Origin: Pseudomonadota bacterium | Lineage (GTDB): Bacteria > Bdellovibrionota > Bdellovibrionia > Bdellovibrionales > Bdellovibrionaceae | Length of the DNA: 44,508 nt | Assembly: GCA_021300175.1 (NCBI GenBank) | Contig: JAJTIC010000048.1 | Coordinates: 1 to 44,508 of the forward strand | Direction: 5' to 3' | Notes under the pieces: generated by a model | Database searches by the model: none | Told to the model about the DNA's origin: nothing | Seen by the model: only the letters and a program-made list of their open reading frames with translations | Position numbers and translations under genes: made by a program | Part shown: positions 31,195-41,192 of the stretch, one piece after another | Position numbering within the stretch: position 1 is the first letter of the stretch | Layout of the letters: each line of letters opens with the position of its first letter

Positions 31195-31680
31195 ATGGCA
31201 GACAAAGTAAAACTATCAAAAGACGGCAGCTCGATTGATTTCGTTCAATCGGACAATATTCCAACATCTTTGAAGAAATTCAGACAAAGTCCCGAAATCG
31301 AGGGTTTCTATCGCTTTATCTTTGAAAATGATCTTCAAAAAGAAGCTTATGAGATCTTAGAAAGAATTATCGCTGGCCGAAAAGCCAAAAAGGCCGCCGA
31401 GAAAGCCGCTCAGAAAGAAGCTGCCAAAGCCGAGAAAGCCGCAGAAAAGGCTGCCGAGAAAGAAGCACAAAAAGCAACAGCTGCCAAAACGGCTGTAAAG
31501 CCAGTGGCCAAAGCAGCCGCTCCAGCTAAAAAGGCGACTCCTGCCAAACCTGCACCCAAACCTACACCCAAACCAGCCGCTCCAGCTAAAAAGGCGACTC
31601 CTGCCAAACCTGCAGCCAAAGCAACTGCCAAAAAAGCTTCTGCAAAAGCAAAACCAGCTGCCAAAGGCAAAAAAAAGTAA
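31195..31680 (+). CDS. Histone H1-like Lys/Ala/Pro-rich protein with folded N-terminal domain
   Basis: The first 60 residues are ordinary and probably helical (SLKKFRQSPEIEGFYRFIF, QKEAYEILERIIAGRK). The remaining 100 residues are almost only Ala, Lys and Pro (AAPAKKATPAKPA twice), as in bacterial H1-like nucleoid proteins that bind DNA by charge. No signal peptide. Two 41-bp identical stretches in the tail are spaced 60 bp apart. It is a single-gene unit between a putative promoter and a strong terminator. The chromatin role is inferred from composition. Confidence 0.78.
   Translation: MADKVKLSKDGSSIDFVQSDNIPTSLKKFRQSPEIEGFYRFIFENDLQKEAYEILERIIAGRKAKKAAEKAAQKEAAKAEKAAEKAAEKEAQKATAAKTAVKPVAKAAAPAKKATPAKPAPKPTPKPAAPAKKATPAKPAAKATAKKASAKAKPAAKGKKK
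31514..31614 (+). repeat. Direct 60-bp repeat in the H1-like gene tail
   Basis: The 41-bp stretch at 31514-31554 recurs identically at 31574-31614, offset by 60 bp (20 codons). Identity at synonymous positions points to a recent tandem duplication that lengthened the basic tail. Confidence 0.85.
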
Positions 31681-31785: not shown

Positions 31786-32037
31786 ATGATCAAAAATCAA
31801 AAAGGACAATCTCTGGTTGAATATCTCATTCTGGTTGCTCTCATTGCCGTAGGGAGCATCGGGCTTGTGAGGGCTATTGGACAGAACCTGAATATTCGCT
31901 ACGCCAAAGTGGTTGAGTCTTTGGGGGGAACTGTTGAAACCAAAAATCTCCGAGCTGATGCTGTCACTGAGAGCATGGTCAAAAAGAAAGATCTTCGAGA
32001 CTTCATGAATGGCAGTTTATCTCGTGACGAAAAATAG
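31786..32037 (+). CDS. Flp-type class IVb pilin
   Basis: 83 residues. A short basic leader ends at Gly7 before QSLVEYLILVALIAVG, the class IVb prepilin cleavage site with Glu at +5 and Tyr at +6, followed by a single hydrophobic helix. It would be cut and N-methylated by a TadV/CpaA-type prepilin peptidase, which is not in the window, and would form the pilus shaft. The start at 31786 is fixed by a perfect ribosome site AGGAGG. The longer frame from 31714 crosses the terminator. It heads the pilus gene set. Confidence 0.88.
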   Translation: MIKNQKGQSLVEYLILVALIAVGSIGLVRAIGQNLNIRYAKVVESLGGTVETKNLRADAVTESMVKKKDLRDFMNGSLSRDEK

Positions 32038-32383
32038 ATCATTAGGCCAAAGCACTTTGGAAGCGGCAATTAGCCTTTTCGTCCTCGTCACATTCTTCCT
32101 TCTTACCCTGCAAGTTCTCTCAGTCTCATGGACTCGCTGGATGATGGAATTTTATGGATATCGCTGGGTGAAATGCGAAATGAGCCTGGGCCTGAATGGC
32201 AGAAAAGCAGACTGCCAAAAGAAGTATCGCCGCCTGCTTGAGATTGTTTTGCCCCTGGCCCAGGTTAAAGCCGCTGAAATTCAATCGGATCAGCGAGGCC
32301 AGAAAAAATTGAAAGTTCGACTCAAGCAGTGGGGTCTGAATGAAGCGACATTTTCTCAGACAATCAAATCCAGCACCAAGTGA
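32009..32383 (+). CDS. TadE-like minor prepilin
   Basis: 124 residues. The leader ends at Gly13 before QSTLEAAISLFVLVTFFLL, again with Glu at +5, followed by a hydrophobic helix and a basic C-terminal domain (WVKCEMSLGLNGRKADCQKK with two Cys that may pair). This is the TadE/pseudopilin layout. GTG at 32024 would give a more typical 8-residue leader and is an alternative start. It overlaps the Flp gene by 29 bp, or 14 bp with the later start. Confidence 0.75.
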   Translation: MAVYLVTKNRSLGQSTLEAAISLFVLVTFFLLTLQVLSVSWTRWMMEFYGYRWVKCEMSLGLNGRKADCQKKYRRLLEIVLPLAQVKAAEIQSDQRGQKKLKVRLKQWGLNEATFSQTIKSSTK

Positions 32384-33014
32384 GTCTGGTTTTGTTTTGA
32401 TCTTAACTGTTTTGATCATCCCTGTGTTGAGCACAATATTACTGATTTTTGCATCCCACTTGATTCAATTCAGATCTTCCCTGAGTCTTATTTTTCGGTG
32501 CGAGTCCACAATGATCAATGCGAACAACTCAGTGATCGAAGAGCTCGAAAGTTTAGAAAAACTCAATCCCCGAGTGATTTCTCTGAGAAAACAAAAGCGA
32601 ATGGCCCGCTGGGGGTTAAAGACCGCTCTCGCATCAGGAAACCCCAGCCTAATTGCCGCAGCAAGAGCTCAGCTGATTCTCATTGAAACTCAAGAAAAAA
32701 TCGTTCGCGGGCAGCAGCTGATCTCCTTAGGAAAAATCAATCAAAGCTGGGCACAGGCCCATCAAAAATTGAAGAATGAGCTGACGAGACAAAGACTGAG
32801 TCTTCTGTCGATTAAACTTCCCTTGGTACCGATGAAAGAATTGAGCTTTCCGGATGGTCCGCCGACTTACGAACCTCGAGAGTCGTCCTTTCGACAGACT
32901 CGCTGGTTCTTTCTTTGGAAGAAAAATAAGAGCTTCAAATCCAGCTGTGGATCAGCCATTGAGAGAAAGGATAAACAATGGAAACAAGTTCTGATCGAGG
33001 ACAAATTATACTAG
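32340..33014 (+). CDS. TadG-like or minor-pilin-like membrane protein
   Basis: 224 residues. An N-terminal Ser-Gly-Phe-Val-Leu segment leads into one hydrophobic helix (FVLILTVLIIPVLSTILLIF) after a basic leader, the layout of TadG-type proteins, but without the +5 Glu seen in its neighbours. The rest is a long helical, basic region (about 50-165) and a short tail with Trp and Cys. It overlaps both the gene before (44 bp) and the small prepilin gene after (37 bp). Named by context and topology rather than by a recognised domain. Confidence 0.65.
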   Translation: MKRHFLRQSNPAPSESGFVLILTVLIIPVLSTILLIFASHLIQFRSSLSLIFRCESTMINANNSVIEELESLEKLNPRVISLRKQKRMARWGLKTALASGNPSLIAAARAQLILIETQEKIVRGQQLISLGKINQSWAQAHQKLKNELTRQRLSLLSIKLPLVPMKELSFPDGPPTYEPRESSFRQTRWFFLWKKNKSFKSSCGSAIERKDKQWKQVLIEDKLY

Positions 33015-33136
33015 AGACTCTTCTGGTCTTCTTCTTTCTTACAGCCTTTTTTCTGTTCACGATAGCGACTGCTGAGAAAAACAAAAGACCGCATTTTGAG
33101 AAACACCAGGGGGACTTTCATGTTCAAGTTCACTGA
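32978..33136 (+). CDS. Very small prepilin-like protein (52 aa)
   Basis: METSSDRGQIILETLLVF opens the protein: an 8-residue leader ending in Gly, then Gln-Ile-Ile-Leu-Glu (Glu at +5) and a hydrophobic helix rich in Phe, ending with a short basic tail. This repeats the processing site of the Flp and TadE-like proteins upstream. The ribosome site AAAGGA is 6 nt before the ATG. It overlaps the TadG-like gene by 37 bp and the CpaB-like gene by 17 bp, consistent with a coupled operon. After cleavage the mature chain would be only 44 residues. Confidence 0.7.
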   Translation: METSSDRGQIILETLLVFFFLTAFFLFTIATAEKNKRPHFEKHQGDFHVQVH

Positions 33137-33611
33137 TCGGTTGAAGACAAAACACTTAATACTCGTTCTTGCTGGAAGCTTTACAGTCTCTGCGTTTCTT
33201 TATTTTTCAAGGACAACTCAAAATTCGATCCCAGAGACTTCAACCAGCCAAGGAGTGACTGATGCAGCGACTTTGATTCCGGAAGGTTATGTACTAGTCC
33301 CCATTGAGCTTTCCAATCAAGCTTCGCTCCAATCCCTCATCGGTGGTTTTGCCGTGGTAGACCTTTTTGTTCCTGGCACTGCAGGACAACCGCGAGGACG
33401 CAAGGTGGGGAAAAGCTTGCGGCTGATCCGCGCCCCTCTTAATCCTGACCAATTTGCAGTGCTCGTGCGTGAACATCAAGTCGCTTCGATCATGGAGTCT
33501 CAACTTCCCCTCTTTGCAGTGATTCAGAATTCGCGGAGCAATTCTGAAAGCCAGGTTTCTTCCCGCACGTCTCAAGAATCTATCACCTATTTCGAAGGGA
33601 CCGAACAATGA
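33120..33611 (+). CDS. CpaB/RcpC-like pilus assembly protein
   Basis: 163 residues with an N-terminal signal anchor (KHLILVLAGSFTVSAFLYF) and a SAF-like region: EGYVLVPIELSNQASLQSL followed by GGFAVVDLFVPGT matches the CpaB pattern of a conserved VPI segment then a GxxVDLF segment. CpaB works with the secretin in the periplasm of Tad systems. It is shorter than usual (about 250-300), lacking most of the N-terminal SAF half. The ATG at 33120 follows ribosome site AGGGGG. Confidence 0.68.
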   Translation: MFKFTDRLKTKHLILVLAGSFTVSAFLYFSRTTQNSIPETSTSQGVTDAATLIPEGYVLVPIELSNQASLQSLIGGFAVVDLFVPGTAGQPRGRKVGKSLRLIRAPLNPDQFAVLVREHQVASIMESQLPLFAVIQNSRSNSESQVSSRTSQESITYFEGTEQ

Positions 33612-34450
33612 AAATCATATCAGTCGTTGCCACCATTCTTGTTCTTCAAACAGGACTCTCAAGCTTTGCTAGCAACAAACGACCTTTGATTGGAAATTCA
33701 TTAGAACCAGAATTTCAGAGAATCCTAGATTCGCACCATGATCTTTTGCCACTGAGCGATTGGTATCCTCAGCACTTAAAGAATAGTCCTTCATCTCTGA
33801 CAGTTTTTGAAATGAATTGTGAAACTCAAAAAAACTCTTGTGAGTTAGAGATCAAAAAATGGTTCCAGCGCCCTCTTAAATCTGATCAGATTTACTACTT
33901 AAAACAATTGTCTTCGACTTCCTTGCAAACTCCAGAGCTTTCTCGTTTTATTGAGGGAGAGAAGCATCTTGACCGAGAACCCCCTCAAATGAGCCAAGAT
34001 GCCGAAGTCATTCTGAGTTTGTTGAAGAAAAAATACCCTCAGATTCAGGCTGTTCTTGTGAATGGAAGAAGTCTCTCGTCAGTGCAAGTTCCTTTGCTAT
34101 CAACAGATGAATATTTTCAGTGGGTACTTCTTTCAGATTCTTTTTGGCCGCTCGTGTATTGGGGGCCTCTAAAACAACTCGAGAGTGAAAATCTTATGTT
34201 TCAATCCTTGATGGGAAGATGTGATTCGGATGTCCTTGTGACTCATCCCCCAGAATTAGATCAGGGTCAATGGGCCTGCCCTTCTGGTGGACAGACCTTT
34301 CGTCCCCGAGTTCACTCTCAAATTCTCGAGCACACCCAAAAGAGCAAGTATTGGATCCCAGCCACTTTATTAGGAATTATTGGAGCCAGCTATTTTCTGA
34401 AAAATAAAGAGATTGAAATTCACGGCTTCTTGAACAAAGGATTTCCCTGA
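33608..34450 (+). CDS. Exported protein of the pilus gene set, unknown function
   Basis: 280 residues: a signal peptide (IISVVATILVLQTGLSSFA), a soluble domain with four or more Cys (MNCETQKNSCELEI, GRCDSDVLV, QWACPSGGQ), and a membrane-like segment near the C-terminus (ATLLGIIGASYFL). Start overlaps the CpaB-like stop (ATGA) and it ends the first pilus operon, so it probably serves pilus biogenesis. No family recognised. Its 3' end overlaps the amidohydrolase gene by 31 bp. Confidence 0.65.
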   Translation: MKIISVVATILVLQTGLSSFASNKRPLIGNSLEPEFQRILDSHHDLLPLSDWYPQHLKNSPSSLTVFEMNCETQKNSCELEIKKWFQRPLKSDQIYYLKQLSSTSLQTPELSRFIEGEKHLDREPPQMSQDAEVILSLLKKKYPQIQAVLVNGRSLSSVQVPLLSTDEYFQWVLLSDSFWPLVYWGPLKQLESENLMFQSLMGRCDSDVLVTHPPELDQGQWACPSGGQTFRPRVHSQILEHTQKSKYWIPATLLGIIGASYFLKNKEIEIHGFLNKGFP

Positions 34451-35730
34451 AAGAAAACTTGAGACACTTGATTGTCTTTTATCTCAGTCCAGCAACCAGA
34501 GCCCCAGCTTAAATCAGGATGTTGATGATAGTTCATCCAGGGGGCTCGGGGTGGCTGAATCCCCTCTTGAGCGGCAAGAACCAAAGCTTGAGCATTGGCA
34601 AAAAGATCTGGCTTCTCGATTGGAGTATCGCTGCCAAAGTAAAAAGGGATTCCATGGTCTTCGGCTTTTTTCCAAGGGAAAACCGAGTCAAACAGGGGAC
34701 CAAGCTTTTCTTTCAGCCATTTTCGATCCGAGAGGTAATGGCAAGGCTGAAAGTAAAGCTTTGCAGAGAGTTCTTTCAAAAGAGAAAAACTTTTTTCTTG
34801 GACAACTTCGGCGTGTTCAAAACAAATACGAACTGCGGCTCCTTGGGGCTTTGCTTGCAAGGCCAATTCAGCGACGTCTTGCAATGCCTGATCACCAATT
34901 GTGTGTGTTGCAACTTCAAATCCCTCTGTCCAGATTTCTCTGAGCGATTTCCTGAAAGAATCCTGATCCCACAAGCGAACTCCGCAATGATGTTTCCCAT
35001 GATAATTTTGACTCAGAAGAGCACCTTCAGAACCTAAAGCTCCATCATAGAAAAGTTTGATTCCAAGAAGACGAACCTGCTTAGAAGAAACTTGTCGAGT
35101 TCTTCTTGCGAGATTCATTTTTTCAGCAAGATCCTTTTGATGACTCAGTAGAATATAACCTTCTACGAAAAGAGTAAGCAGTCCTTCCTGTTCAAGCTCG
35201 TGCATAATTTCAATTTGAGTTTGATCCCAAGTCATGTCACGGACATGAGTAAATCCTGCACGATTGAGTATTTCTTGCCCCCGCAAAATAAATCGGCGAC
35301 GGACTTCTTTCGAGTAGGGTGGGATTAATTGTTCAAGTTTTTCTTTGGCGGCGTCGAGAAGCACACCCGTCGGCTTTCCCTGGGGATCTTTAAGAATTTG
35401 CATTTGCTCTTGATCAGTCAGCTGCTGTCTTAGCAGAAGGTCAAGAGCCACAGAATTCACCCAAGCACAGTGGCCATCAGCTCGTGAAAATGAAATTGGG
35501 AATTTTTGAGAAATGAGATCAAGATGGCTGTAATGAAGTTGGAGATCTAAAAAACTATTTTGATCCCATCCGAAACCGGTCAGCCACTCACCACGAAAAT
35601 CAGTCGGTGAAAATTGAAGTGATTTTAGATCTGCAAGAGTGCGTAAATGCTGCAGCTTCAAAGTGAGATCTATTTGCCCTGTGGCTTCCAGATGAAGATG
35701 ACTGTCGTAACAGCGTTCAATTTTGAGCAT
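34420..35730 (-). CDS. Amidohydrolase of the YtcJ-like (Amidohydro_3) type
   Basis: A metal-dependent hydrolase of the TIM-barrel superfamily. The first metal ligands are in DSHLHLE (residues 9-15), the central Lys region in LLGIKLFYDGALGSEGA, a later His in VATHTIGDQALQDV and FEHAEVV, and the catalytic Asp in YFGSDTPIEKPD. 436 residues is short for YtcJ (about 520): the usual N-terminal beta-sandwich part is missing and the chain starts at the barrel. Substrate unknown (relatives act on N-acyl or formamide bonds). It starts at the end of a terminator (see 35731-35758). Confidence 0.85.
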   Translation of the reverse strand: MLKIERCYDSHLHLEATGQIDLTLKLQHLRTLADLKSLQFSPTDFRGEWLTGFGWDQNSFLDLQLHYSHLDLISQKFPISFSRADGHCAWVNSVALDLLLRQQLTDQEQMQILKDPQGKPTGVLLDAAKEKLEQLIPPYSKEVRRRFILRGQEILNRAGFTHVRDMTWDQTQIEIMHELEQEGLLTLFVEGYILLSHQKDLAEKMNLARRTRQVSSKQVRLLGIKLFYDGALGSEGALLSQNYHGKHHCGVRLWDQDSFRKSLREIWTEGFEVATHTIGDQALQDVAELALQAKPQGAAVRICFEHAEVVQEKSFSLLKELSAKLYFQPCHYLSDRKWLKEKLGPLFDSVFPWKKAEDHGIPFYFGSDTPIEKPDLFANAQALVLAAQEGIQPPRAPWMNYHQHPDLSWGSGCWTEIKDNQVSQVFFQGNPLFKKP

Positions 35731-35758
35731 AAAAAACCCCAGCAGTTGCCGGGGTCTT
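35731..35758 (-). terminator. Intrinsic terminator of the Met/Gly-rich gene abutting the amidohydrolase start
   Basis: On the minus strand ACCCCGGC-AACT-GCTGGGGT forms an 8-bp stem with one G-T wobble, followed by TTTTTT and directly by the ATG of the amidohydrolase (35730). The 3' arm GGGG is the only Shine-Dalgarno candidate for that gene, so the fold would both end transcription and hide its ribosome site. Confidence 0.8.
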
Positions 35759-35769
35759 TTGTTCAGCGT

Positions 35770-37611
35770 TTATCTGACGCTGGGTACTCCAGAAGGCCCA
35801 CCACCAGGGTTAGGCACTTGAGATCCAGGGAACTGACCGCCACCAGGGAGGCCTGTTCCAGGAAGTGGGCTACCGCCCGGCATTCCAGGTGTATAGCCTC
35901 CTCCGAAGCCACCTTCAAATCCAAAGTAACCTCCGGTGCTCACTCCCATTTGGGCTTGTTGCAGTCGGTAAAGAAGTGAATACAGTTCTTGCTGAAGGCC
36001 CATGACGACGCGCTGACGAGCCATGTAGTTTTCTTGAGCTCGCATCGCCATTTGCATCTGCATTTGGTACTGCTGCATCTGCATTTGCATCATCTGTTGC
36101 TGCATTTGCATCTGCATTCCCATCATGTCAGAGCCCATTCCACCGCCAGCCATCATGCCCATGCCACCGCCAGCCATCATGCCCATCATGTTACCCATCG
36201 GCATTCCCATGCCACCACCAGCCATCATGCCCATCATGTTACCCATCGGCATTCCCATCTGCATCGCTCCCATTGGCATGCCCATCATATATCCACCCGG
36301 CATCATGAAACCGATTCCACCGCTCGCCATCATTCCACCTGGATAAGCGCCCCAAGGACCATTACCCCATGGACCGGCCATACCCCAAGGTCCCATTCCC
36401 GGCATGAACATTCCGCCACCCATGGGCATCCCGTACATTCCATGTGGATAGCCAAACGCACCGCCATTACCGCCGTACATTCCACCCATCCCGAAAGGAC
36501 CCATCATTCCGTAAGGGCCGTTGAAACCACCAGTTCCACCCATTCCGCCCATACATCCGAAAGCACCACCACCGACACCACCACCGATGGCGCCGTAAAG
36601 AGCTCCCATGAAGTAAGGAAATCCAAAACCAATCGAAGGATAAGACTGGGTTGGGAAACCCAATTTTGAATTCATGTCAGTGATGTACTGTTGTTGTTTG
36701 TTTCCGAAGTACATCGAAGCAATTCCAAGGCCCACATTGGCGAGAATCTCGCCTGTGCCAGGTTTTCTTGGCTGCATGACGTAGCCATTGCCCATCATCA
36801 TACAATCAATACAACCACCCTCAGTCATTTGCTCGCGAGCTTCTCTTTGAGCTTCGCGAACAGCATCTCTGAGTTCCCCGCGTTTGTCGGCGATAGCAGT
36901 CTTCGAGTTTTCAATGTCAGCTTCAAGTGCAGCGACGAGTTGAGCTTGCTGATCCAGTTTATCTTTGTTGTCTTGGAGGTAAGCCACGGCCGTTTCACAC
37001 TGCTTTTGGTTGTATCCCTGAGAAACTTTCGCTTCAGCAGGAACTGTGCAAGCAGCTCTCACAACAACTCGACCTCCACCTTTTGGAGCTTGATCACGGC
37101 TGCGATCACAGATTTGGGCGCCCCAAACGTTCGCGGCATAAGGATCGGTCGCAACACCCGTGTCTTCTGCTGCCGTTGCTGATCCTCCTGATGGGTCACT
37201 CACCGCTCCTGAATCTGAAGAAGTTAAATCACGATTTTGAACGGCATCAGTGGGAGCTGGAACACGCGTTTGATAATCACTACATTTTCGTTTTCCATCA
37301 ATATGATCGATGATCAAGTTTGAGTAACCGACATTTAGATTCTTGTTTACGCGCTCTTTGGCTTGATCGTATTTACGCTGCATTTCGCGCTGTTTGCGTT
37401 TTTCTTCGCTGAGTTTTTGGCGTTTTTCCACCAGGGCTGATTGCATGTCTTGGATTTCATCTTGGATATCTGAAGCGCCATCCCCCGCACTGACTCCCCA
37501 AGGGCAAGACTGCATGGCGCCATACATCCCGTATCCCCATTGAGCATGTGCCGGCGGCACAGCCATCATCACAAAAGCAGCCACCATAGAAATGGGCGCA
37601 AAAATTCTCAT
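35770..37611 (-). CDS. Exported Met/Gly-rich repeat protein with coiled-coil N-terminus, unknown
   Basis: 613 residues. A signal peptide (MRIFAPISMVAAFVMMAV to PPAHA) is followed by a coiled coil (IQDEIQDMQSALVEKRQKL onward), a Cys-containing middle (ICDRSRD, AACTVPAEAK, GGCIDCMMMG) and a second coiled coil. The C-terminal half is glycine- and methionine-rich: GMPMGNMMGMMAGGGM repeats (16 residues, two copies), a Gln/Met zipper (MQMQQQMMQMQMQQ) and a Pro/Gly tail. Ribosome site GGAG, 7 nt from the ATG at 37611, fixes the start; the frame upstream is not coding-like. Metal binding, oxidant trapping or surface assembly are possible; function unknown. Confidence 0.8.
   Translation of the reverse strand: MRIFAPISMVAAFVMMAVPPAHAQWGYGMYGAMQSCPWGVSAGDGASDIQDEIQDMQSALVEKRQKLSEEKRKQREMQRKYDQAKERVNKNLNVGYSNLIIDHIDGKRKCSDYQTRVPAPTDAVQNRDLTSSDSGAVSDPSGGSATAAEDTGVATDPYAANVWGAQICDRSRDQAPKGGGRVVVRAACTVPAEAKVSQGYNQKQCETAVAYLQDNKDKLDQQAQLVAALEADIENSKTAIADKRGELRDAVREAQREAREQMTEGGCIDCMMMGNGYVMQPRKPGTGEILANVGLGIASMYFGNKQQQYITDMNSKLGFPTQSYPSIGFGFPYFMGALYGAIGGGVGGGAFGCMGGMGGTGGFNGPYGMMGPFGMGGMYGGNGGAFGYPHGMYGMPMGGGMFMPGMGPWGMAGPWGNGPWGAYPGGMMASGGIGFMMPGGYMMGMPMGAMQMGMPMGNMMGMMAGGGMGMPMGNMMGMMAGGGMGMMAGGGMGSDMMGMQMQMQQQMMQMQMQQYQMQMQMAMRAQENYMARQRVVMGLQQELYSLLYRLQQAQMGVSTGGYFGFEGGFGGGYTPGMPGGSPLPGTGLPGGGQFPGSQVPNPGGGPSGVPSVR
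36160..36255 (-). repeat. Two 48-bp tandem units coding 16-residue Met/Gly repeats
   Basis: Units 36160-36207 and 36208-36255 differ at one base by eye and encode GMPMGNMMGMMAGGGM. A degenerate partial unit sits beside them at 36141-36159. Such in-frame tandem units can vary in number between strains. Confidence 0.85.
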
Positions 37612-37784
37612 AAAATTTCTCCGTTGCTTCAAAAGCAAAAAAATCGGTTCTCTTTTTCCAGTATTTAGTTCGTCAATTTTTAAGACAAACTTAAGGCAAG
37701 ATTCTGAATTCTTTGAATTTTCCGAAATCATCTGCGTCCTTCACTTCCGTGTGATGGTTTGGCATCTAGCAAAGCAATATCCTA

Positions 37785-37814
37785 TTGCCCATATACTGTC
37801 TCAAATTCTACACT
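37785..37814 (+). promoter_or_regulatory. Putative sigma-70 promoter giving a near-leaderless mRNA
   Basis: TTGCCC (37785-37790), 18-nt spacer, TACACT (37809-37814). The ATG of the histidine kinase is 9 nt further and has no Shine-Dalgarno, so the transcript would begin 2-3 nt before the start codon. Confidence 0.42.
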
Positions 37815-37823
37815 AGATACCTA

Positions 37824-38933
37824 ATGAAACCTACGATTCTTTGTGTGGACGATGAAAATGATAACTTGGACGCGCTTGAGAGGCTGTTCCGAAGCAGGTA
37901 CAAAGTCCTGAAAGCTGACTCAGGTTTCAAAGCATTGGAAATCCTCGACCAAACTCCAGATCCTGTGGCCGTGATTCTTACCGACCAAAGGATGCCTGAA
38001 ATGACCGGGGTCGAGCTTCTGTCAAAGACGATCGAAAAGCATCCTGACACCGTACGAATGCTTCTCACTGGTTACACAGATATTCAATCAGTGGTTGAAG
38101 CGGTAAACGCGGGACAGATTTATCGCTATTTGACAAAGCCTTGGGATCCTATTGATTTGATGACCACAGTTGATAGCGCCGCGGAGCGCTTTCAGATGAC
38201 AGTTGAAATCAAAGAAAAGAATGAAGCTCTGTCAAATGCACTCACTGAACTCAAGACTCTTGATCAAGCGAAAACTCAATTTATGATTTTGATCAATCAT
38301 GAACTCAAGACACCGCTGACATCGATCCTGTCCTTCTCTGAATTGCTTCGCGAAACACATTTGAACGAAGAACAAGAGCTCTGCCTGAGCCGAGTCTATA
38401 AATCAGCTCTCCGCTTAAAAAATTTGGTGGATGATGCATTGCTTGTTGTTGCTGGCGAAACAAAGTCTTTGAAAATTCGTATTCAGCCCTATGTTTTGTC
38501 GGAGCAAACTGTTCCTTTGAATAGTGATACTCAAGCTTTGATCAAACAAAAAAGACTCAAGCTTGAGATTGATTTTCTGATTGATAAAAAAATTGCAGCC
38601 GATGCGAATTACATCAATCAAGTGCTCTCTCGACTTATTCACAATGCGGCCAAGTTTTCATTGGATGAGGCCGTGATCGACGTTGGATGTTCTTTGGTCA
38701 CTAACAATCGAATGAAGCTCGAGGTCCGAAATCAAGGACAACAAATTTCTCCCACCGTGATTGAAAAAATCATGAAGCCTTTTTTTATTGATGAGGATGT
38801 TATGAACCATTCGGTCGGTATGGGATTGGGACTCACCATCTGCCAAAGTATCCTCCGTGCCCATGGATCAACTCTTCATGTGGAAAATACCAATAATGGA
38901 GTTACCGTTTCTTTCGAACTCCCCTGTCTTTGA
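37824..38933 (+). CDS. Receiver-histidine kinase (soluble hybrid sensor)
   Basis: 369 residues, no membrane helix. An N-terminal receiver (Asp54 in ILTDQRMPEM, Lys105 in YLTKPW) is linked by a coiled coil to a HisKA domain with phosphorylated His159 (INHELKTPLTSIL) and a complete HATPase domain: N-box RLIHNAAKFS, G-box GMGLGLTICQSIL. The receiver precedes the kinase, the reverse of classical hybrids, so phosphorylation of the receiver by another kinase may set the activity of this one. The output partner is not in the window. It sits between two pilus gene groups and directly upstream of the secretin. Confidence 0.9.
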   Translation: MKPTILCVDDENDNLDALERLFRSRYKVLKADSGFKALEILDQTPDPVAVILTDQRMPEMTGVELLSKTIEKHPDTVRMLLTGYTDIQSVVEAVNAGQIYRYLTKPWDPIDLMTTVDSAAERFQMTVEIKEKNEALSNALTELKTLDQAKTQFMILINHELKTPLTSILSFSELLRETHLNEEQELCLSRVYKSALRLKNLVDDALLVVAGETKSLKIRIQPYVLSEQTVPLNSDTQALIKQKRLKLEIDFLIDKKIAADANYINQVLSRLIHNAAKFSLDEAVIDVGCSLVTNNRMKLEVRNQGQQISPTVIEKIMKPFFIDEDVMNHSVGMGLGLTICQSILRAHGSTLHVENTNNGVTVSFELPCL

Positions 38934-39023
38934 GCGGACAATCCGAAGCTTGAACAAGATCTGCTTTTGACTTCTAACTCGGCTGTGTCTTCAAAATGCC
39001 AGAACAGTAGTTTAGGAGGTTCT

Positions 39024-40247
39024 ATGTTCCTCATGACTTTACTGGCGAGTACATTCCTACGAGCTGAAAACTTGACCCTTGGATTGGGTGAGAATAAATC
39101 TGTCCCCATCTCAGGACCCATCTGGGTTGAGAATGGCAAACTCCTCCAAGTGACTGTTTCTGGCCAAAGAATGCTTCTTCGTGGGAAAAGGCCAGGAGAA
39201 ACCACTCTGAAGTCAGGAAATAAAAGGTACCAAGTACGTATCACTGAACTTGCCGACGAGTTGGCCCGAATTCCTCTACTGACAGCTGTTCAGAATTCAC
39301 TCAACCTTTCAGCGACAATGAAAAATGGAATTTGGCAAGTGCAAGGAGAGCTATCAGCTTTTTTCGAGTGGCAAAATCTTTCACGGAAGTGCCTCGAGCA
39401 AAAATGCAGGTACCTCTTCCGCGCAAAAATTCCGGAGTCTCTTCGCGAGAGTATTCTCAATGGCCTTTCGCAAGAATTAAAAAATCACTTTTTACCATCA
39501 GAAAAAATTCATTTTACTCCGTGGCCCCAGCTTTATCTCAATCCACAGCATCCTCAGTTTTCACTCTTTCAAAATTGGGCAAATGCCTATGGAATCGAAA
39601 TTCAAGAGGATAAAACAGCTTTGAATACTCTGCCGACAACTCGAATTCACATTTATATTCTAGAAGTCCAACGTTCTTGGCTTCAAAGTTTTGGCATCAG
39701 TTTACCTTCACAACTTTCATTTCAAAGCTTTCCTCAACTTCGAGGCAGTCATGATGAGATCTTTTCGCAGCTCAAAGCTCTCGAGACTCAAGGCGTGCTC
39801 AAAACATTGGCCCAACCACAAATTCTCTCCAAGTCAGGAAAGGAGTCTGAGTTCTTCGCGGGAGGGGAAATTCCTATTCCCATGATCACTCCCCGATCGC
39901 GAGAAATTGTTTGGAAAAAGTATGGGATTCAAATCAAATTCTTACCCCTTGCTGATCGTAGTGGCAGACTCAACCTGTCCTTGGATGCCGAAGTGTCTTC
40001 AGTGAAGCCGAGCGGAGATGCTCAACAGATCCCTGAAATCTCTGCCCACCGAATCTCGACTCATTTTGATTTAATGAATCCAGAACCCATCACACTTTCA
40101 GGTCTCATCCGAAATGAAACGCTTTCTTCAAGCTCGGGATTGCCTTGGATTTCACAAATTCCTCTTTTTAAAGAGCTTTTAAACTCTCAAGAGTACCGAG
40201 AGAATCGCACTGAACTCATGATCGTTGTGCAGCCTGAACTTCTTTGA
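39024..40247 (+). CDS. Secretin-family outer-membrane channel (CpaC/RcpA-like)
   Basis: 407 residues. A signal peptide (MFLMTLLASTFLRA) and an N-terminal domain with GLGENKSVPISGPIWVENG and LLRGKRPGETTLKSG, the CpaC/pilus-secretin N-terminal pattern. The secretin core follows: TQGVLKTLAQPQILSKSG, FFAGGEIPIPM and the closing LSGLIRNETLSSSSGLPWISQIP with TELMIVVQPELL. It forms the gated pore through which the pilus exits. The perfect ribosome site TAGGAGG fixes the ATG at 39024. It directly precedes the ATPase gene. Confidence 0.85.
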   Translation: MFLMTLLASTFLRAENLTLGLGENKSVPISGPIWVENGKLLQVTVSGQRMLLRGKRPGETTLKSGNKRYQVRITELADELARIPLLTAVQNSLNLSATMKNGIWQVQGELSAFFEWQNLSRKCLEQKCRYLFRAKIPESLRESILNGLSQELKNHFLPSEKIHFTPWPQLYLNPQHPQFSLFQNWANAYGIEIQEDKTALNTLPTTRIHIYILEVQRSWLQSFGISLPSQLSFQSFPQLRGSHDEIFSQLKALETQGVLKTLAQPQILSKSGKESEFFAGGEIPIPMITPRSREIVWKKYGIQIKFLPLADRSGRLNLSLDAEVSSVKPSGDAQQIPEISAHRISTHFDLMNPEPITLSGLIRNETLSSSSGLPWISQIPLFKELLNSQEYRENRTELMIVVQPELL

Positions 40248-40256
40248 GGAGAATTT

Positions 40257-41192
40257 ATGACCGAAAGCTTATGGGGAACCATCCATCCACTGATTGAAAA
40301 TTCCGAAGTCACAGAGATCATCGTAAATGACTACCAAAGAGTTTTCTATGAACGAGCTGGACATCTCTATCCCTGGGAAAAAGCTTTTCAAAGTGACCGA
40401 GAATATCAATCAATGCTGAATGAACTCATGGTCCAGACAAGAATGAACTGGAATATTGAGCATCCCATCGCAGAAGCCGATTTTGAAGGCTTTCGATTAC
40501 AACTCATAGCGCCCCCTCTGGTTAGATCTCATCAGCTCGTGCTCCGTCGCACCACTCATTCACAGTGGAACTTTGAAAAACTTGAAAAAAAAGGCTGGGC
40601 ACCAAGATCTGCTTTAGAGATTCTTGAGCGAATTGTGGATTATCGAGAGAATTTCCTTGTTGTGGGTCCTACCGGCAGCGGCAAGACGACAGTGCTTCAA
40701 GCCATGCTCAATGCGGCAGAATCTCTTCGTCGCTTTGTCATTCTTGAAGACACTCCAGAACTCAGTCTTCCCAACACTGTATCAGCTCAAGCGAAGACTC
40801 GTTTCGATCCTCAGAGCCTTCTTCCAACGGTTGATCTGGGACATCTCATTAAAGCGAGCTTACGTTTGAGACCGGATTCCCTTTGTGTCGGCGAAGTTCG
40901 AGGACCAGAAGCTTTTCATTTACTCACAGCCCTGACGACAGGCCATGCAGGGAGTTCGGGCACCTTGCATGCCAGCAACCCCCAACAGGCTCTTCAAAGA
41001 TTAGAGATGATGGTCAGTCAAGGAGCTCCCGAGTGGGGACTCGACCTTGTTAGAAAAGTCATTCAGAGTTCTCTGCAGTGGATTATAGTCTGTGAAAAAA
41101 ACAAATCCGGCAGATTCTGTCGAGGAATCTACCGTATCGTCGGTTTAGAATTGATCGGATTCACATTCGAACCCGCCTATGAGAAGTCTTAG
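40257..41192 (+). CDS. CpaF/TadA-type secretion ATPase, short form
   Basis: An AAA ATPase of the type II/IV secretion family that powers pilus assembly. Walker A is VVGPTGSGKTTVLQ (Lys143), the Asp box is VILEDTPELSL, Walker B/His region is LRLRPDSLCVGEVRGPEAF and TTGHAGSSGTLHASN. The N-terminal CpaF region (about 100 residues, including VTEIIVNDYQRVFYER) is present, but the protein has 311 residues against about 430-470 in typical CpaF; what is missing is the extra N-terminal part ahead of that region. Ribosome site GAGGAG precedes the ATG. Confidence 0.88.
   Translation: MTESLWGTIHPLIENSEVTEIIVNDYQRVFYERAGHLYPWEKAFQSDREYQSMLNELMVQTRMNWNIEHPIAEADFEGFRLQLIAPPLVRSHQLVLRRTTHSQWNFEKLEKKGWAPRSALEILERIVDYRENFLVVGPTGSGKTTVLQAMLNAAESLRRFVILEDTPELSLPNTVSAQAKTRFDPQSLLPTVDLGHLIKASLRLRPDSLCVGEVRGPEAFHLLTALTTGHAGSSGTLHASNPQQALQRLEMMVSQGAPEWGLDLVRKVIQSSLQWIIVCEKNKSGRFCRGIYRIVGLELIGFTFEPAYEKS

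Follow-up and report, generated by a model that had tools for sequence, protein, structure and literature searches.

Prey entry by Bdellovibrio requires pili, and existing work has assigned flp pilin genes to one TAD operon and to 'orphan' flp genes. Here we analyse a 44,508-nucleotide stretch of DNA (the window: contig JAJTIC010000048.1 of assembly GCA_021300175.1) from a member of the Bdellovibrionaceae whose assembly comprises 2.45 Mb in 150 contigs. We compare it with relatives that include a genome of the same family, which we take to be B. bacteriovorus HD100. Within the window lies a split, Tad-like locus that, in our judgement, quite probably specifies the flp3 system, a reduced Tad (type IVc) pilus machine that would be the genome's second and would have an ATPase, a secretin, a platform and pilins to itself.

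Among described systems, the Kil-like hit/TAD operon (bd0109-bd0119) resembles this locus in having a Tad-type pilin, CpaB, CpaC, CpaF and TadB; it differs in its CpaE-CpaF fusion, full-length CpaB, RHS neighbour, canonical TadB and slower divergence. The source genome carries this operon on contig C113, with a CpaB of 301 amino acids (aa), a CpaC of 508 aa, a CpaE-CpaF fusion of 741 aa (a MinD/CpaE-like domain joined to CpaF), TadB and an RHS-like protein, and HD100 has the same arrangement (locus L077). We therefore rejected the idea that the window is itself the hit locus. A Tad machine in two parts has a precedent in another predator: the Kil machine of Myxococcus xanthus is divided between two clusters (PMC8460266). 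The Kil homologues discussed there in Bdellovibrio appear to be the hit/TAD genes together with those of the TadC study. A third comparison comes from operons of a sister family (f19) of the same phylum, in which a secretin of near type, CpaF and a platform gene like the TadC' described below are contiguous; on the other hand, the platform protein is a fused, two-domain one, the gene of an FHA-type protein comes after it, and the 20 kb read contained no match to flp or to the CpaB-like protein. These operons (L148:8571-11859, L149:9026-12530 and L150:9810-13240) may represent a fused-platform Tad variant.

The window locus is the counterpart of the flp3 locus of HD100, which runs from bd3297 (flp3) to bd3307 (cpaF): HD100 has the same genes in the same order, including the interspersed amidohydrolase, Gly/Met-rich and receiver-kinase genes. 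We derived this numbering from the correspondence of eleven genes, flp to cpaF, with eleven locus numbers. In the literature searched, only flp3, 'pilQ' (bd3306) and 'cpaF' (bd3307) are named; we found there no paper naming bd3300-bd3305, and none that treats all the genes together as a single machine. All eight genes named in an earlier note on this DNA are open reading frames with the boundaries it gave. The features are as follows.

31195..31680, plus strand: conserved small protein with a Lys/Ala-rich tail, a constant neighbour upstream of flp
31786..32037, plus strand: Flp major pilin (Flp3 orthologue), 83 aa, class III signal G|QSLVEY
32009..32383, plus strand: TadE-like minor pilin with G|QSTLE and an invariant Cys pair (weak TadE match, alignment)
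32340..33014, plus strand: TadG-position membrane protein, pilin-like N-terminus lacking Glu5 (by position, synteny and alignment only)
32978..33136, plus strand: 52-aa prepilin with G|QIILE (motif, orthologues at the same place)
33096..33611, plus strand: short CpaB/RcpC-like protein, one transmembrane helix and one beta domain
33608..34450, plus strand: 280-aa conserved protein with an apparent signal peptide and a C-terminal hydrophobic segment
34420..35730, minus strand: amidohydrolase-type enzyme, an intervening gene (named by the look of its sequence only)
35770..37611, minus strand: Gly/Met-rich repeat protein with a signal peptide and a coiled-coil-like stretch
37824..38933, plus strand: receiver and histidine kinase protein, a possible regulator (Response_reg, HisKA, HATPase)
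39024..40247, plus strand: secretin of CpaC/RcpA type (Secretin E 1.3e-27; pilus N-domain E 0.004)
40257..41192, plus strand: CpaF/TadA assembly ATPase with a GPTGSGKT P-loop and a GHAGSSGTLHA motif

This arrangement is conserved among relatives. When 32 fetched loci were searched with profiles, an order-wide block emerged: FolD, Lys-rich protein, Flp, TadE, TadG, 52-aa protein, CpaB, 280-aa protein, (amidohydrolase), Gly/Met-rich protein, receiver-kinase, secretin, CpaF, (143-aa protein) and AspS. The locus, with its three intervening 'foreign' genes, is syntenic in about ten families of the order (about 20 other loci), and the block recurs, without the amidohydrolase, in family f11 of the same class. 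Comparison with relatives, which the earlier note had proposed as a check, thus finds both halves and the genes between them conserved, and conservation of the parts across the order excludes chance. Several genomes (G053, G048, G023, G011 and G017 among them) have the pilin/CpaB half and the secretin/CpaF half on different contigs; in some of these, where the contigs are large, the halves are likely to be truly separated. That both are kept nevertheless argues that they belong together. Nearly every sampled genome of the class keeps parts of the locus, and genomes of only 1.2-1.3 Mb retain CpaF, the CpaB-like protein and the TadC' described below.

The two best-matched components are the ATPase and the secretin, the latter present in 32/32 loci. 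CpaF matches T2SSE (Pfam, E 1.2e-35) and the TadA family TIGR03819 (NCBIfam, E 2.6e-51). It is short, as had been suspected, in that about 60 N-terminal residues of most orthologues are absent; the residues of its catalytic region are invariant in the ortholog alignment, and the ATPase motifs are kept. In a tree, window-type CpaF forms a clade of its own (support 99/97), and the CpaF of the hit locus falls in another. About 98 of 99 class genomes contain the window type (G054 lacks it and G260 has a partial copy); outside the class, scores reach only the level of paralogues. A contig scan with the CpaF alignment used patterns that lay partly on the P-loop and returned mostly paralogues, L116 alone being useful. 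We also observed a third CpaF-type ATPase, of the bd0793 type (L019:7602-8702 on C51; L074:7494-8600), whose gene keeps its place close to an enolase-like gene, away from any secretin, pilin or platform gene; it could be a retraction or accessory motor.

The pilin-like proteins are recognised less by profiles than by their processing sites. Flp reaches E 4.4e-6 with Flp_Fap (26.8 bits, under the Pfam cut-off of 32.2), is 48% identical to HD100 flp3, and has invariant G7, E12, D69 and F73 in an alignment of 15 sequences; its C-terminal extension is conserved across Flp3 proteins (consensus KKDLSDF). The TadE-like protein has a weak but recurring match to Pfam TadE (E 0.0085; 5e-6 for the best family member). 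These two and the 52-aa protein have the G-Q-x-x-x-E site that the earlier note reported for three small proteins (GQSLVE, GQSTLE and GQIILE, respectively). Its G and E never vary across alignments that span 12 to 15 genera; the Q is nearly invariant in two of the proteins, Flp and the 52-aa prepilin, and is the usual residue in the TadE-like one. The 52-aa prepilin is too short for a globular domain; G8 and E13 are invariant, and orthologues occupy the same place in 20/32 loci. The TadG-position protein has an invariant Cys pair; its alignment retains the Gly of a prepilin-type site and lacks Glu5. A Pfam scan of its family gave nothing convincing (1 of 14 members matches Pfam Tad, E 0.071). 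Of the earlier labels, then, Flp and TadE-like are seen, weakly, by profiles, and TadG is a label by position. The earlier note had named profile failure on the small proteins as grounds for doubt; they do miss Pfam cut-offs, and it is synteny and the conserved cleavage motifs that carry the case.

Another distinguishing component is the CpaB-like protein, detected in 97 of the 99 class members and in none of the 192 other genomes sampled from the phylum (291 in all). It is shorter than usual, as the earlier note said, with one transmembrane helix and one beta domain, against 301 aa at the hit locus. No match was found in a Pfam/NCBIfam sequence search. A structure model built from two sequences (mean pLDDT 57; about 56-79 in the beta-domain blocks) was compared by Foldseek with 350,542 PDB chains. 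The best match was RcpC of the Tad alignment complex, 9gzr_A (probability 0.99, E 0.068, 21% identity); the next-best matches reach 0.25 only. The model supports, and does not prove, that the protein may be a one-domain RcpC.

The locus has neither TadB/TadC nor a prepilin peptidase, as first noted: a Pfam scan of the window contig gave no T2SSF or prepilin-peptidase match. A search of the whole genome for both found a type II secretion set (C149), type IVa genes (C56/C80), TadB (C113) and a canonical TadC (C124/C108). Relatives disclosed a further, orphan pair with overlapping genes, which we name TadB' (about 260 aa) and TadC' (about 145 aa, half the usual size); it lies at C74:98,996-100,209 in the source genome and at about 3,669,300-3,670,510 in HD100. 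The pair adjoins cystathionine-type genes, to which HD100 and some relatives add Mla-type transporter genes. TadC' is, from its sequence, homologous to canonical TadC: it matches T2SSF (E 3.6e-5 in HD100, 0.0017 in the source genome), aligns with Bd0470-type TadC (hhalign E 2.4e-6), and a search with it returns canonical TadC as the second match in genome after genome. TadC' is present in 60/60 relatives and 99/99 class members of the phylum sample; outside the class the search gave weak matches only, mostly to full-length TadC-like proteins. In the three f19 genomes, secretins and a CpaF related to the window type are followed directly by a TadC'-like gene (326-358 aa), and the f19 secretins are nearer to the HD100 window-type secretin than to hit-locus CpaC (best case, E about 1e-40 versus 1e-17). 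TadB' is a candidate by adjacency and length only. Because of the f19 neighbourhood, the equal class-wide distribution and elimination (all other platforms in the genome have partners of their own), we regard TadB'/TadC' as the probable platform of the locus. Presence and absence within the order was uninformative as a test of partnership, both sets being near-universal.

The canonical TadC heads a conserved run of FHA-like genes of the bd0470-bd0474 type (L075 5775-12708; C108/C124 in the source genome), and in the source genome its gene is seemingly broken at the contig ends of C124 and C108. Two prepilin peptidases occur in the genome, PilD on C69 and TadV on C113 (L018:95-613 and L080:5546-6376). 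The TadV-type enzyme, at the hit/TAD locus, is of a kind reported to be missing from Bdellovibrio genomes (PMC5430801).

Bearing in mind that the locus has the Tad/type IVc features of an Flp with a class III site and Glu5, a TadA/CpaF ATPase and an RcpA/CpaC secretin, we hypothesize the following mechanism. CpaF would hydrolyse ATP on the cytoplasmic side and so drive the inner-membrane TadB'/TadC' platform encoded on C74; a shared prepilin peptidase (PilD or TadV) would process two or more minor prepilins as well as Flp, cutting at G|Qxxx(E); minor pilins (the TadE-like and 52-aa proteins, perhaps the TadG-like one) would prime or cap the fibre, and this would exit through the secretin, the RcpC-like CpaB protein keeping alignment. 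The platform role of TadB'/TadC' and the formation of a fibre are what we infer from the gene set. We call this a reduced variant that would work like a Tad machine because it is without TadZ/CpaE and its TadB/C and CpaB are less firmly matched. The earlier proposal of a reduced, split Tad-like machine with partners elsewhere gains support from synteny, joint retention, the platform candidates on C74 and the prepilin peptidases on C69 and C113.

Several observations weigh against a second Tad machine. Neither CpaE/TadZ nor TadD was recognised among the scanned locus genes, TadB' has no Pfam match, and TadB'/TadC' was never seen adjoining the locus in the class. TadC' also occurs in three incomplete genomes that lack the locus (G025, G038 and G054). 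The f19 CpaF was not adopted as closest relative of the window type, the tree failing to resolve a sister position. No alignment was obtained between the CpaB-like profile and the canonical CpaB profile; the earlier CpaB label thus fails this test and finds its support in the best match of a low-confidence model to RcpC. Finally, flp3 is reported not to be expressed in HD100, and its deletion to have no predation phenotype (PMC5430801).

A bolder reading, which we think possible, if somewhat unlikely, is that this dispersed machine, combining a half-size TadC' and a divergent TadB' with an RcpC of one domain and with an ATPase and a secretin of its own, defines a distinct branch of the type IV filament family, one that is retained throughout the class that includes Bdellovibrio for a function (pilus or secretion) other than that of the hit/TAD pilus. 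A different reading takes the locus as an alternative set of pilin, tip and ATPase that borrows the canonical hit/TAD TadB and TadC: a module and no separate machine. Those proteins are present in the genome, the requirement for each of several HD100 flp genes in predation makes mixed pilins in one system plausible (PMC5430801), and Myxococcus Kil has tips that are interchangeable and come from separate clusters (PMC12075869). However, an ATPase and a secretin belong to the locus itself, an unassigned platform pair exists in all sampled class genomes, and the rates of divergence differ: window-type CpaF averages 49% identity across six genera in which the hit type averages 80%, and the means for the same genera are 40% for TadC' versus 66% for TadC, and 25% for TadB' versus 60% for TadB (FolD, 60%). 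The flp3-type machine is thus retained yet diverging fast. We did not adopt the canonical TadB/TadC (C113, C108/C124; Bd0110/Bd0470 in HD100) as dedicated partners and, while keeping this borrowing as a rival, consider it distinctly unlikely.

Still less probable, in our view, is a secretion device of Tad origin that has a short pseudopilus instead of an extracellular pilus and exports, for example, the Gly/Met-rich protein. The several minor-pilin-like proteins beside one Flp would suit such a device, as would the signal-peptide protein near the locus in 26/32 cases; but the Flp is of major-pilin type, the rest of the set fits a pilus, and the Gly/Met-rich protein is encoded on the opposite strand, with no evidence that it is a substrate. 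That the locus is a decaying, barely functional relic of a duplicated Tad operon, as silent, phenotype-free flp3 (PMC5430801), fast divergence and the short window CpaF might suggest, is very improbable given open frames and synteny class-wide, retention in 1.2-1.3 Mb genomes, conserved ATPase motifs and transcription of bd3307 in attack phase, as implied by its reported lower expression in host-independent strains (PMC3818213).

Of the neighbouring genes, the protein upstream of flp starts with ~62 highly conserved residues (89% identity with HD100) and ends in a low-complexity Lys/Ala tail whose length varies; its type precedes flp in 20/32 loci, nearly all of the intact ones. The 280-aa protein has orthologues in 18/32 loci; a Pfam scan of its family gave nothing convincing, and its structure model (mean pLDDT 39) was too poor to use. 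The amidohydrolase gene, found in 16/32 loci and missing from several families, is probably outside the machine. The receiver-kinase protein is 58% identical to its HD100 counterpart and kept in 28/32 loci. The Gly/Met-rich gene, which constantly adjoins the secretin half, has a local GC content higher than its surroundings (0.525).

In HD100, flp1, flp2 and flp4 were reported to be essential for predation (PMC5430801). The pilus genes reported to be less expressed in host-independent strains than in attack phase include bd3307 (PMC3818213), and therefore the assembly half of the flp3 system may be expressed. We suggest tentatively that the machine serves prey or surface contact in attack phase, under conditions beyond those tried so far. 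The analysis places one orphan flp in a candidate machine that is complete, its platform, ATPase and secretin all named. Nearly all sampled genomes of the class, highly reduced ones included, retain this machine; it offers a clear genetic target and may help to explain the differing behaviour of single-flp mutants.

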